Shown piece by piece: positions 42,484-45,456 of a stretch of 64,000 nt of DNA (within the stretch, counting starts at the first letter, position 1; every line of letters starts with the position of its first letter). Under the pieces are notes generated by a model. The model did no database searches. It had not been told where the DNA came from and saw nothing but the letters and a program-made list of their open reading frames with translations. The position numbers and the translations under genes were made by a program. The DNA is from Arenibacter sp. F26102. Lineage in GTDB: Bacteria > Bacteroidota > Bacteroidia > Flavobacteriales > Flavobacteriaceae. Location of the stretch: NCBI RefSeq assembly GCF_023015865.1, contig NZ_JALKBC010000001.1:496001-560000 (forward strand), read 5' to 3'.

Positions 42484-42816
42484 ATGAACGCACTTAGAAA
42501 CAGAGTACAGTTGATTGGAAACTTGGGTAACGATCCAGAAATTATTAATCTAGACGGAGGGGGCAAATTGGCTAAATTCGCCATTGCCACCAATGAGACC
42601 TACAAAAATGCCAAGGGAGAAAAAGTAACGGATACCCAATGGCACAATGTGGTAGCATGGGGAAAAACAGCGGAAATCGTAGAAAATTATCTCAACAAGG
42701 GTAAGGAAGTTGCAGTTGAAGGAAAATTAACCACTCGGTCTTATGAAACCAAGGAAGGGGAAAAGCGGTATATTACCGAAATCCGCTGTAATGAACTCCT
42801 GATGTTAGGGAAATAG
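42484..42816 (+). CDS. ssb: Single-stranded DNA-binding protein, short form
   Basis: 110-aa OB-fold protein. The family pattern is complete: RNRVQLIGNLGNDPEI, KLAKFAIATNETYKN, TQWHNVVAWGKTAEIVENYLNKGKEVAVEGKL and RYITEIRCNELLML. The protein ends right after the OB fold and lacks the disordered linker and acidic C-terminal tip (DDDLPF-like) by which housekeeping SSB recruits repair and replication proteins. It is therefore probably an accessory SSB paralogue, and a full-length SSB should exist elsewhere. Confidence 0.9.
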   Translation: MNALRNRVQLIGNLGNDPEIINLDGGGKLAKFAIATNETYKNAKGEKVTDTQWHNVVAWGKTAEIVENYLNKGKEVAVEGKLTTRSYETKEGEKRYITEIRCNELLMLGK

Positions 42817-42865
42817 ATTTTTCTTACCTACTCGGGAAGAATTACCAGAGGTATAGCGCAGTACT

Positions 42866-42920
42866 AAGAAGTAATCTGTTGGGTCCGTTCAAGGAGCTAT
42901 AGGGTTACTTCTTTTGCTTT
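42866..42920 (+). terminator. Terminator-like hairpin after ssb
   Basis: AAGAAGTAA (42866-42874) pairs with TTACTTCTT (42905-42913), followed by TTGCTTTTT. The loop is long (30 nt), so this is a weaker terminator call. Confidence 0.45.
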
Positions 42921-43113
42921 TTGGGTTGTATTAATGAAAGGTCATTGCGAGGAGTGAAAGGACGAAGCAATCTGTCTTTTAGTGGTTTGTTGCTGTGAGT
43001 TTTTGTCACAAAGCAAAGAGATTACTTCTCTTTGTCTGCCTGTGGACATCCAAGTTCGCAATGACTTGCAAATTAGGTTGTTAAGGATTTCTGTTTACAC
43101 ATTACTAATGAGA

Positions 43114-43631
43114 CGTCATTGCGAGGAGCGTGAGTGACGAAGCAATCTGTCTTTATATTAGTTTATTGATGTTTGTTCCAAGTGAATAGTTTTGAGATTG
43201 TCAGTGAATACCTTTTTTTTGAAAGTTAAGTTAGCATGGAGAAATATAAATTATGAAAAAGTCATATGTTTATTTACTTGCCAATAAGACTAATACCGTC
43301 ATCTATGTCGGGGTTACCAGCAATCTAGTTAAGCGTATTTACGAACACAAGAATGGTGTAGGTCATAGTTTTACTTCTCGTTATAATTGTAATAAATTGA
43401 TTTATTGGGAAGAATTCAGTGATATACAAAAAGCTATTGAAAGGGAGAAACAGATAAAGGCAGGTAATAGGAGGCGTAAGGAACAATTAGTCAATAGTGA
43501 GAATCCTAATAGGAAGGATTTAGCTGAAGGATGGTTGTTTTATTTTGATTGAATAGTATAAGGAACTTAAATGCCCTCTTAAGAGATTGCTTCACTAAGT
43601 CTGCCTACGGACAGTCAATTTCGCAATGACG
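43114..43631. mobile_element. Palindromic unit carrying a GIY-YIG gene, candidate mobile element
   Basis: The second unit of the array has the normal left arm (43114-43153) and right arm (43583-43631), but its centre holds a 300-bp GIY-YIG gene with about 100 bp of upstream sequence instead of the usual 40-50 bp. The outer arms share CGTCATTGCGA in inverted orientation and the inner blocks share AAGCAATCT. This is the layout of a small element with inverted ends, with the compact neighbours as possible non-autonomous copies. Mobility is an inference. Confidence 0.45.
43253..43552 (+). CDS. GIY-YIG endonuclease
   Basis: 99-aa single-domain nuclease of the UvrC/homing type. The motif is complete: VYLLANKTNTVIYVGVTSNL (GIY and YIG equivalents VYL and YVG), the catalytic Arg in KRIYEHKNG, and the metal-binding Glu in AIEREKQIKAGNRRRKEQL. 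A conserved NPNRKDLAEGW segment ends the chain. Relatives of this size are common in Bacteroidota, often mislabelled as excinuclease ABC subunit C, and their role is unknown. It lies inside one unit of a palindromic repeat array, which suggests that it acts on those repeats. Confidence 0.9.
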   Translation: MKKSYVYLLANKTNTVIYVGVTSNLVKRIYEHKNGVGHSFTSRYNCNKLIYWEEFSDIQKAIEREKQIKAGNRRRKEQLVNSENPNRKDLAEGWLFYFD

Positions 43632-44674
43632 TGCAACTGTGGTCGTTAAGGCTTTCCGCTTTGTTGGTCCCAATTAGGCGTCATTGCGAGGAACGTTAGT
43701 GACGTGGCAATCTGTATGTTATTGGTTACTGCTGTTAGTTCTTGTCGAAAAACAAAGAGATTGCTTCACTATGCCTGCCTGCGCGCAGTCAAGTTCGCAA
43801 TGACGTGCAACTGTGGTCGTTAAGGCTTTCTGCTTTGTTGGTCCCAATTAAGCGTCATTGCGAGGAACGTTAGTGACGTGGCAATCTGTATGTTATTGGT
43901 TACTGCTGTTAGTTCTTGTCGAAAAACAAAGAGATTGCTTCACTATGCCTGCCTGCGCGCAGTCAAGTTCGCAATGACGTGCAACTGTGGTCGTTAAGGC
44001 TTTCCGCTTTGTTGGTCCCAATTAGGCGTCATTGCGAGGAACGTTAGTGACGTGGCAATCTGTATGTTATTGGTTTGTTGCTGTTAGTTCTTGTCGAAAA
44101 ACAAAGAGATTACTTCACTTTGTCTGCCTGCGGACATCCAAGTTCGCAATGACTTGCAAATTAGGTTGTTAAGGATTTCTGGTTCGATAGTCCCAATTAA
44201 GCGTCATTGCGAGGAACCTTAGTGACGTGGCAATCTGTCTTATTTTATATTTGGGTTTACTTCTGTGAGATTGCTTCACTAAGTCTGCCTACGGACAGTC
44301 AAGTTCGCAATGACGTGCAACTGTGGTCGTTAAGGCTTTCCGCTTTGATAGTCCCAATTAAGCGTCATTGCGAGGAACCTTAGTGCCGTGGCAATCTGTC
44401 TTATTTTATATTTGGGTTTACTTCTGTGAGATTGCTTCACTATGCCTGCCTACGCGCAGTCAAGTTCGCAATGACGTGCAACTGTGGTCGTTAAGGCTTT
44501 CTGCTTTGATAGTTCCAATTAAGCGTCATTGCGAGGAAACTTAGTGACGTGGCAATCTGTATGTTATTGGTTAATGCTGTTAGTTCTTGTCGCAAAACAA
44601 AGAGATAGCTTCACTATGTCTGCATGCGGACAGCCAAGTTCACAATATTTGGGAATGTATGCGGTGTTCAAAGT

Positions 44675-44869
44675 TTAAGCAACCTTCTGCATCAGATCAA
44701 AACAAGGACAACGATTGCACCTCTTGGATTCCGACTTTTTGAATTTGTCGCAACACTTGGTTTTGCACCCATGGGGAACCATTTCCTTAAGAGCCGTTTT
44801 CTGCTCCTTTTTTAAAGCTTTTTTAAGCTTCTTTTCGGTTTTCTTATCCTGTTTTTTCTTCTTGCCCAC
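44675..44869 (-). CDS. 64-aa Lys-rich protein with Cys cluster
   Basis: Small protein with an N-terminal Lys-rich helix (GKKKKQDKKTEKKLKKALKK) and a C-terminal cluster of five Cys residues (HGCKTKCCDKFKKS, then KRCNRCPCFDL) that could bind a metal or form a zinc knuckle. It lies between the repeat array and the ferritin gene. Composition and Cys spacing look selected rather than random, but no family is recognised. Confidence 0.55.
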   Translation of the reverse strand: MGKKKKQDKKTEKKLKKALKKEQKTALKEMVPHGCKTKCCDKFKKSESKRCNRCPCFDLMQKVA

Positions 44870-44937: not shown

Positions 44938-45456
44938 TTATGGCTTTGGGGTTATGGCTGCACTATTTGCTGTAATCTGCTGTATATCACGATCGAACAG
45001 ATATAGACCGCCCTTATCATTTCCGATCAGGTTGATTTTGTCCAGAATATTTCGGGCCAATGCCTCTTCCTCAATTTGTTCTGCTACATACCATTGTAGA
45101 AAGTTATGGGTGGCATAATCCTTTTCCTGAAGGGTTACATGTACCAATTCGTTAATGCTATCCGATACAAAAATTTCGTGCTCCAATAACTCGTGGAACA
45201 TTTTTTGAAAACTCACAAAGTCGGTTTTGGGTGCATTAAGTGCAGAGACATTGGCGTGTCCGCCCCTTTCATTGATATATTTTACCAATTTCAGCATATG
45301 TAAACGTTCTTCATCGGACTGGTTATACATAAATTGTGCAATCCCCTCCAGTCCTTTGCCTTCGGCCCAAGAAGCCATGGATAAATATACCTGTGAAGAT
45401 TCGGCTTCAATACGCACCTGATCGTTCAATGCTTTTTCTAATTTTTCAGACAACAT
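44938..45456 (-). CDS. ftnA: Ferritin
   Basis: 172-aa non-haem ferritin that stores iron in a 24-subunit shell. The four-helix bundle shows the ferroxidase residues: Glu in RIEAESSQVYLSMASWAE, ExxH in YNQSDEERLHMLKLVKYI, and Glu/Gln in NFLQWYVAEQIEEEALARNI. A possible TAACTTTA promoter element lies about 20 bp upstream. It ends with a short tail (QQITANSAAITPKP). Confidence 0.93.
   Translation of the reverse strand: MLSEKLEKALNDQVRIEAESSQVYLSMASWAEGKGLEGIAQFMYNQSDEERLHMLKLVKYINERGGHANVSALNAPKTDFVSFQKMFHELLEHEIFVSDSINELVHVTLQEKDYATHNFLQWYVAEQIEEEALARNILDKINLIGNDKGGLYLFDRDIQQITANSAAITPKP

Follow-up and report, generated by a model that had tools for sequence, protein, structure and literature searches.

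The array between ssb and a ferritin-like gene

The window analysed here, i.e. the whole 64-kb stretch of DNA, corresponds to C11:496001-560000 of a 5.44-Mb Arenibacter genome. An open reading frame on its forward strand (42484-42816) encodes, judging from the sequence, what we take to be a single-strand-binding protein (ssb). Downstream, a reading frame on the reverse strand (44938-45456) encodes a presumably ferritin-like protein and served as the marker for locating the site in relatives. The gap between these two genes contains eight palindromic units, seven of them compact and one carrying a GIY-YIG nuclease gene, an arrangement that the first-pass annotation had described and that octamer positions, spacings, a hairpin scan, and the open reading frame bear out. 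Between 42943 and 44527, the octamer CATTGCGA occurs eight times and TCGCAATG seven times, and successive units start 174, 565, 174, 174, 175, 161, and 161 nt apart.

The gene-bearing unit is the second of the array (43114-43631) and has a hairpin at each end, with CGTC tags pointing outward. Its left hairpin (43114-43148, forward strand) has the stem ATTGC/GCAAT, and its right hairpin (43584-43631, reverse strand) has a further small hairpin nested within the loop. Spacing, folding, and the hairpin scan define compact units 3 (43679-43805) and 4 (43853-43979), as well as units 6 (44202-44315) and 7 (44363-44476), which have a shorter loop. Unit 1 (42941-43065) bears the tag GGTC and hence lies outside the strict scan; the left hairpin of unit 5 (44027-44153) passes that scan, whereas its right arm, with GATTAC, fails it; and unit 8 (44524-44646), recognized by octamer and hairpin scan, has a decayed right arm, TTCACAAT. 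Folding of compact units 1, 3, 4, 5, 6, and 7 (each 112-126 nt long) with RNA parameters gives long hairpins with energies between -31.3 and -40.5 kcal/mol.

A tag-plus-hairpin scan of the full window returned fourteen hairpins, twelve of which lie inside the array, and the tag of all twelve is CGTC. The exact pattern GTCATTGCGAG is present in nineteen copies in the 5.44-Mb genome (8/19 inside the array) and its reversed pattern in none, so the array exceeds what chance would give. An Rfam search of 42800-44800 yielded no family at E values up to 1. Small hairpins of the CCTGCC..GGCAGG type are nested in the loops of CGTC hairpins at 43584-43631, in other right arms of the array, and at loci L275, L277, and L280, which gives the impression of one palindrome having been inserted into another.

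The GIY-YIG gene and its protein

The nuclease gene (43253-43552, forward strand) is intact, as the first-pass annotation had stated: it encodes a protein of 99 aa that matches PF01541 in a profile search (E 5.5e-19). Across forty-one aligned sequences (L080, which has a stop codon, was left out), residues Y7, Y18, R28, H32, and E65 are invariant; we take these to be the GIY-YIG catalytic set. The AlphaFold2 model of the protein has a mean pLDDT of 92.5. Its nearest solved relatives are the UPF0213 proteins 1zg2 and 1ywl, both titled hypothetical, followed by Slx1 and the UvrC nuclease domain, and I-TevI is among the profile-search matches. The small UPF0213 proteins are presumably the same group as COG2827.

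Judged by dN/dS, the protein is under purifying selection: values range from 0.04 to 0.24 over twenty-one pairs (0.07-0.24 in six Arenibacter pairs and 0.04-0.14 in fifteen pairs from the yrdC site described below, L239 being left out), and they are rough in that several dS values exceed 1. Homologues form 912 clusters at 90% identity (E up to 1e-10), which databases name only ‘GIY-YIG nuclease family protein’ or ‘putative endonuclease’; a phage collection contributed two matching records, both weak.

Pairing of nuclease and palindrome across genomes

From a scan of ~85,000 genomes, seventy-nine homologous loci were kept, drawn from the best 80 of 188 relatives. CATTGCGA lies within 300 nt of the gene in 49/79 of these loci (50/79 within 600 nt) versus 10/141 displaced placements in the same loci, figures that partly reflect shared ancestry. 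Palindromes thus accompany the homologues, the reverse of the missing association that the first-pass annotation had named as counting against its proposal. With Arenibacter left out, the counts are 41/71 versus 9/125 displaced; in the non-Bacteroidota subset they are 11/22 versus 1/39, with misbinning possible because all twenty-two of those loci are titled MAG. The leading 8-mers near the genes, obtained with no prior choice of motif, are GCAATGAC, CGCAATGA, and CATTGCGA, all of them one motif. According to record titles, the hosts include Bacteroidota, Microgenomates, Roizmanbacteria, Staskawiczbacteria, Endomicrobia, Omnitrophota, Bacillota, and Proteobacteria. The pairing of nuclease and palindrome extends beyond the local array and spans phyla.

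The layout around the gene is compact: GTCATTGCGAGG-hairpin-CGAAGCAATC, gene, GATTGCTTCG-hairpin-CCTCGCAATGAC. Within Arenibacter, the octamer lies no more than 500 nt from each of the ten close homologues (at least 59% identity, nine genomes), and these loci are non-independent because six of the nine genomes share the ssb-ferritin site. At L075 (3319-3762), the element extends on its right side into the adjoining gene, and the longest reading frame there consequently starts within the element.

Protein branch and palindrome type

The window's genome has eighteen PF01541 matches. Those of its other short GIY-YIG genes that were examined sit in differing repeats, namely GGTCGAGCGCAGTCGAGACC palindromes (L011, L015), GTCATTTCGA units (L012), CTTCGACTCCGCTCAGCC repeats (L009), and the tandem partial tRNA copies described below, which suggests that each nuclease branch has a palindrome of its own. 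Loci from this genome, the genus, the order (fifty-nine genomes), and the contig scan were pooled into 187 distinct GIY-YIG domains with flanks; of 197 open reading frames, eight were dropped for short flanks and two as duplicate domains, and reading frames of more than 250 aa and loci L130-L143 were excluded.

By a motif-free inverted-arm score of at least 14, 88/187 domains have inverted arms nearby versus 3/294 far placements, displaced placements being the control. Among motif labels P1-P9, which were chosen after inspection of the loci, P1 (CATTGCGA) is found near 57/187 domains and in 19/289 far placements. The corresponding counts are 17/187 and 3/289 for P4, 11/187 and 1/289 for P9, 7/187 and 2/289 for P8, and 19/187 and 8/289 for both P2 and P5; P6 is little enriched (16/187 and 13/289) and P3 hardly so (24/187 and 24/289). 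Any of the motifs is present near 141/187 domains versus 69/289 far placements.

On a tree of the domains, built from ninety-three columns by a quick method and with many unresolved forks, one fork of sixty-two rows (SH-aLRT 91) comprises fifty-five P1 rows, five unlabelled rows, and two P2 rows, P1 occurring in only 2/125 rows outside it; rows with P1 plus another motif were labelled P1. CATTGCGA requires ten changes on this tree versus 49.2 when labels are shuffled, and P6 does not cluster on it. The match also appears between diverged proteins. With nearest neighbours below 65% identity, 5-nt stems agree in 45/99 rows (permuted mean 23.0; top of 2000 shuffles 41), and below 55% identity they agree in 40/99 (permuted mean 22.9; top 38). 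As far as these sequence comparisons go, protein branch predicts palindrome type.

Kinship with published CGTC REPs

In the excerpts on which we draw, Di Nocera et al. (2013; PMC3733652) describe CGTC REPs as palindromes with a CGTC, TGTC, or CCTC tag, stems of 8-9 bp that begin with AT, loops of 4-5 nt, and mostly CCA tails. These REPs often form dimers, predominantly head-to-head (HH), occur in five phyla, and include the RPE-4 and RPE-6 elements of Rickettsia; CGTC-1 is equated with dRS3 of Neisseria. Families number tens of copies at the lower end and, when all REPs are considered, thousands at the upper. CGTC REPs ‘apparently lack a dedicated transposase’: in the same excerpts, none of the tyrosine transposases in the species listed is CGTC-flanked, and associations with other transposase genes are few and fortuitous (PMC3733652).

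The units of the window share with these families the unpaired terminal CGTC tag, the stem beginning with AT, and the organization as inverted pairs, whose tags in the window point outward. They differ in the first stem, which measures 5 bp (ATTGC/GCAAT) instead of 8-9 bp, and in loops that are larger than 4-5 nt and often nested; because of the short stem and longer loops, we regard them as kin of the published families and not as strict members. Their tail is CTG, whereas CCA is the commonest tail in a scan with 8-bp stems (fifteen cases). The first-pass annotation had spoken of a candidate for an undescribed nuclease-plus-palindrome system. That wording does not hold for the class of palindrome, since the units resemble the CGTC REP superfamily already described in the excerpted text (PMC3733652). 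The term GIY-YIG has no occurrence in that paper among the matches listed, and no published GIY-YIG nuclease–REP link was found in the open-access literature among the matches listed.

With an 8-bp stem, the scan overlooks the family to which the window's units belong (2/57 CATTGCGA loci pass), and a pattern with a 5-bp stem was therefore adopted: tag [CT]GTC or CCTC, an ATNNN stem, a loop of 4-35 nt, and C[CT]. This definition was set after the arms had been seen, a circumstance that reversed, displaced, and 256-tetramer controls were meant to offset. Tagged hairpins lie within 300 nt of 87/187 genes (on both sides in fifty) versus 25/289 displaced placements and 0/187 reversed flanks; for the other 100/187 small GIY-YIG genes, the strict scan finds none at that distance. 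When the tag is replaced by each of the 256 tetramers, TGTC (fifty-two loci) and CGTC (forty-nine) lead, followed by AGTC (eleven) and GGTC (six), with a median of 0, so that the tag stands out in the flanks of GIY-YIG genes alone; CCTC and GTAG are absent from the twelve leading tetramers. The nearest tags are outward-pointing in 101 cases and inward-pointing in thirty-six, and at 30/187 loci, versus 2/289 displaced placements, both flanks have an outward tag no more than 160 nt away.

Records of a plasmid collection (named records, yet several of them chromosome-sized) added thirty-seven places in thirty-three records. Of fifteen hand-picked places examined among the thirty-seven, thirteen pass the strict scan for a tagged hairpin within 300 nt, seven of them on both sides, and 11/15 pass the 8-bp stem scan. 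Textbook CGTC REPs flank the GIY-YIG gene in Azospirillum, Rhizobium, Shinella, and Neisseria, examples being CGTCATCCCCGCGAAGGCGGGGATCCA (Azospirillum lipoferum) and CGTCATTCCCGCGCAGGCGGGAATCTA (Neisseria), and at L259 and L262 inverted CGTC palindromes have stems beginning with AC and GC. In Azospirillum, the genes on either side of the element are sufB and sufC; in Planktothrix, they are MmeI and drmA. Several carriers named in the excerpts of PMC3733652, i.e. A. lipoferum, S. meliloti, N. aromaticivorans, and Neisseria, recur among our matches.

Repeats are dense in some of these genomes, with ten further hairpins in a 3.3-kb Neisseria stretch and seven in a Photobacterium stretch, and adjacency is for that reason weaker evidence there. 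Such density is what could be said for chance or base composition as the explanation of the pairing, intergenic palindromes being common and their adjacency to the gene coincidental; the displaced placements and reversed-sequence controls argue so strongly the other way that we regard this explanation as having a negligible chance of being right.

Presence, absence, and copy number

Some sites hold the element and others lack it. Among the Arenibacter genomes, the gap between ssb and the ferritin-like gene measures 272 nt in G015 and 282 nt in G011, both of which are devoid of arms; it is 317 nt long in G004, with compact units and no gene, and 723 nt long in G012, with compact units (two ends read) and no close homologue found. 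In a tree of neighbouring DNA, G015 and G011 stand apart, and G004 and G012 fall among the gene carriers; this tree cannot order gain and loss because a branch of ~3 changes per column suggests that the stretch is partly non-homologous.

A second site lies between dinB and yrdC in the genus of G070, where the gene is present in 9/30 loci (G070 included, loci listed). Eight of the nine carriers have CATTGCGA ends, and one has decayed ends; the gene copies of L227 and of G070 itself (74 aa) are shortened. One gene-less locus is a mere 47-nt gap, and none of the twenty-one gene-less loci has CATTGCGA in the 1500 nt before yrdC, which indicates that the whole element, beyond the gene alone, is either present or absent there. 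At another site, a compact unit, whole or partial, lies downstream of another gene in 8/30 loci. Other palindromes (TTTGGCTAAAGCCAAA, GGCGGGCTAAAGCCCGCC, and variants) are found at the gene-less yrdC sites L226, L228, L230, L232, L236, L237, and L240. Inspection by eye revealed no target-site duplication at the junctions read, and no near-identical pair of empty and filled sites is among them. Alignments ending at base 426 were considered as an insertion edge and rejected, as they mark the stop codon of a conserved gene. The array and the presence and absence of the gene in the genus are compatible both with entry of the gene into a compact unit and with its loss from units.

The twenty-one gene-less loci without an arm bear directly on the main rival of the reading we prefer, namely homing into REPs. 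A GIY-YIG gene would cut empty CGTC-REP dimers and be copied into their loops by recombination, splitting the target and protecting the carrier, and another agent would spread the REPs. The gene does occupy the loop of a unit that also exists compactly, GIY-YIG proteins include homing enzymes (with I-TevI in the profile search), and G004 and G012 have compact units at the ssb-ferritin site with no close homologue. The absence of arms from the dinB-yrdC sites does not fit, however, and homing leaves the spread of the REPs themselves unexplained, with only the few fortuitous transposase associations of the excerpted text to draw on (PMC3733652). We consider this rival rather unlikely, if worth serious attention.

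Copy number was compared among the fifty-nine order genomes. Five others with a gene of the P1 branch hold 2, 4, 15, 12, and 10 copies of GTCATTGCGAG, of which 2, 3, 2, 2, and 2, respectively, are at the gene itself. The fifty-three genomes without the gene have a mean of 1.28 copies (thirty-four have none; the maximum is 12; p 2e-4 versus the five carriers). Within Arenibacter, the GTCATTGCGAG count is not significantly related to gene presence (p 0.13), and G004 and G012, both without the gene, have twenty-nine and eighteen copies. In the window's genome, some contigs break off at a GIY-YIG gene or a short way from one (the start of C6, the end of C83, and the end of C12), and copy numbers may therefore be underestimates. 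In Arenibacter, GTCATTGCGAG also forms clusters in stretches of 26-45 kb (G001:C25:25384-53283, G009:C23:105909-131768, and G012:C3:102862-147956).

Arms persist with no close homologue in G004, G005, G012, and other genomes, as might be expected if the small nuclease had a host function or were a hitch-hiker, processing or repairing hairpin DNA among REPs and leaving them in place; the presence of the structure-specific nuclease Slx1 among its nearest solved relatives points the same way. Under that explanation one would not expect the branch-specific match of protein and palindrome, the outward tags that both flanks have within 160 nt (30/187 versus 2/289), or the patchy presence at the dinB-yrdC site, and we judge it decidedly improbable.

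A candidate mobilizer of CGTC-type palindromes

We propose, with a probability of roughly 60%, that the GIY-YIG nuclease recognizes and mobilizes CGTC-type palindromes, the compact units being predicted non-autonomous copies. The broader reading, in which small GIY-YIG nucleases would throughout bacteria be the dedicated mobilizers of the CGTC REP superfamily, having evolved independently of the HUH-based REP/RAYT system and with each branch tuned to its own palindrome, has in our estimate a slightly better than even chance. GIY-YIG chemistry, as known, is a matter of cutting, not of strand joining, and insertion would for that reason need host repair. In the mechanism that we envisage, the palindrome would extrude as a hairpin or cruciform, and the GIY-YIG protein, whose nearest solved relatives include UPF0213 and the branched-DNA nuclease Slx1, would bind tag and stem and nick or cut at the tag. 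Host repair would then insert the freed or copied unit elsewhere. The gene-carrying unit would supply the enzyme, which compact units would use in trans.

The parallel with REP elements and their RAYTs drawn by the first-pass annotation is sound in its anatomy, with a gene-bearing copy and compact copies that have the same ends; movement of the units by the nuclease is what we infer. Both systems pair a small nuclease gene with tagged palindromes on its flanks, include compact copies, and show a match between protein branch and palindrome; they differ in fold (GIY-YIG versus Y1 HUH) and in tag (CGTC versus GTAG). GIY-YIG and Y1 HUH enzymes also differ in their chemistry.

A RAYT- or IS200-type tyrosine transposase could in principle move the palindromes, with the GIY-YIG gene incidental, and Y1_Tnp genes are indeed present in 15/18 Arenibacter genomes. 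At ten Y1_Tnp loci, out of forty-eight matches in Arenibacter, a tagged hairpin was found in 0/10, and 9/10 are without any listed motif within 1.5 kb, the tenth having a single octamer; RAYT was rejected as the mobilizer on this count. Moreover, G002, G008, and G017 have arms and no Y1_Tnp match. We accordingly deem a tyrosine transposase very improbable, a view with which the lack of any CGTC-flanked one in the excerpts of Di Nocera et al. agrees (PMC3733652).

The element proposed here resembles insertion sequences and MITEs in having one gene, inverted ends, and gene-less relatives; unlike them, its sole gene encodes a GIY-YIG nuclease and not a DDE or HUH transposase, and no target duplication was seen. 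With the GIY-YIG homing endonucleases (I-TevI and its free-standing kin) it shares the nuclease superfamily and the position of the gene inside its presumed target, but no intron was recognized, and the flanking tagged palindromes recur in many gene-less copies.

If mobilization by the GIY-YIG protein is true, the CGTC REP superfamily would gain the dedicated enzyme that the excerpted text reports as missing, and the naming of a specific candidate makes the CGTC-REP transposase question of 2013 directly testable (PMC3733652). Nuclease-driven spread of palindromes would then have arisen at least twice with unrelated folds, and very common proteins named only ‘GIY-YIG nuclease family protein’ or ‘putative endonuclease’ would have a function.

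Other GIY-YIG branches

Palindromes of the type TGTCAGGTCGAGCGCAGTCGAGACCT, with a TGTC tag and a stem beginning with AG, flank a separate GIY-YIG branch (P4) at L011, L015, L034, and other loci. Genes of a different GIY-YIG branch of the window's genome lie within tandem partial tRNA copies, at L010 (C11:577000-582500), L013 (C8:80500-85500), and L016/L017 (start of C6, end of C83). In this layout, the 5' part of a tRNA, or a whole tRNA with extra loop hairpins, is followed by the gene and then by the next copy, the final copy being an intact tRNA; the tRNAs concerned are tRNA-Leu, -Arg, and -Pro. Tagged hairpins are absent from all sixteen rows that have a tRNA close by (0/16), and the branch may be a tRNA-targeting relative. 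G051:C34 (L205) and G052:C224 (L203) probably belong to the same branch. The P3 motif of L205 was rejected as a palindrome, all eight P3 rows being tRNA T-arms. At L205, eight tandem GIY-YIG genes lie beside tRNA T-arm pieces, among which ARAGORN finds no intact tRNA.
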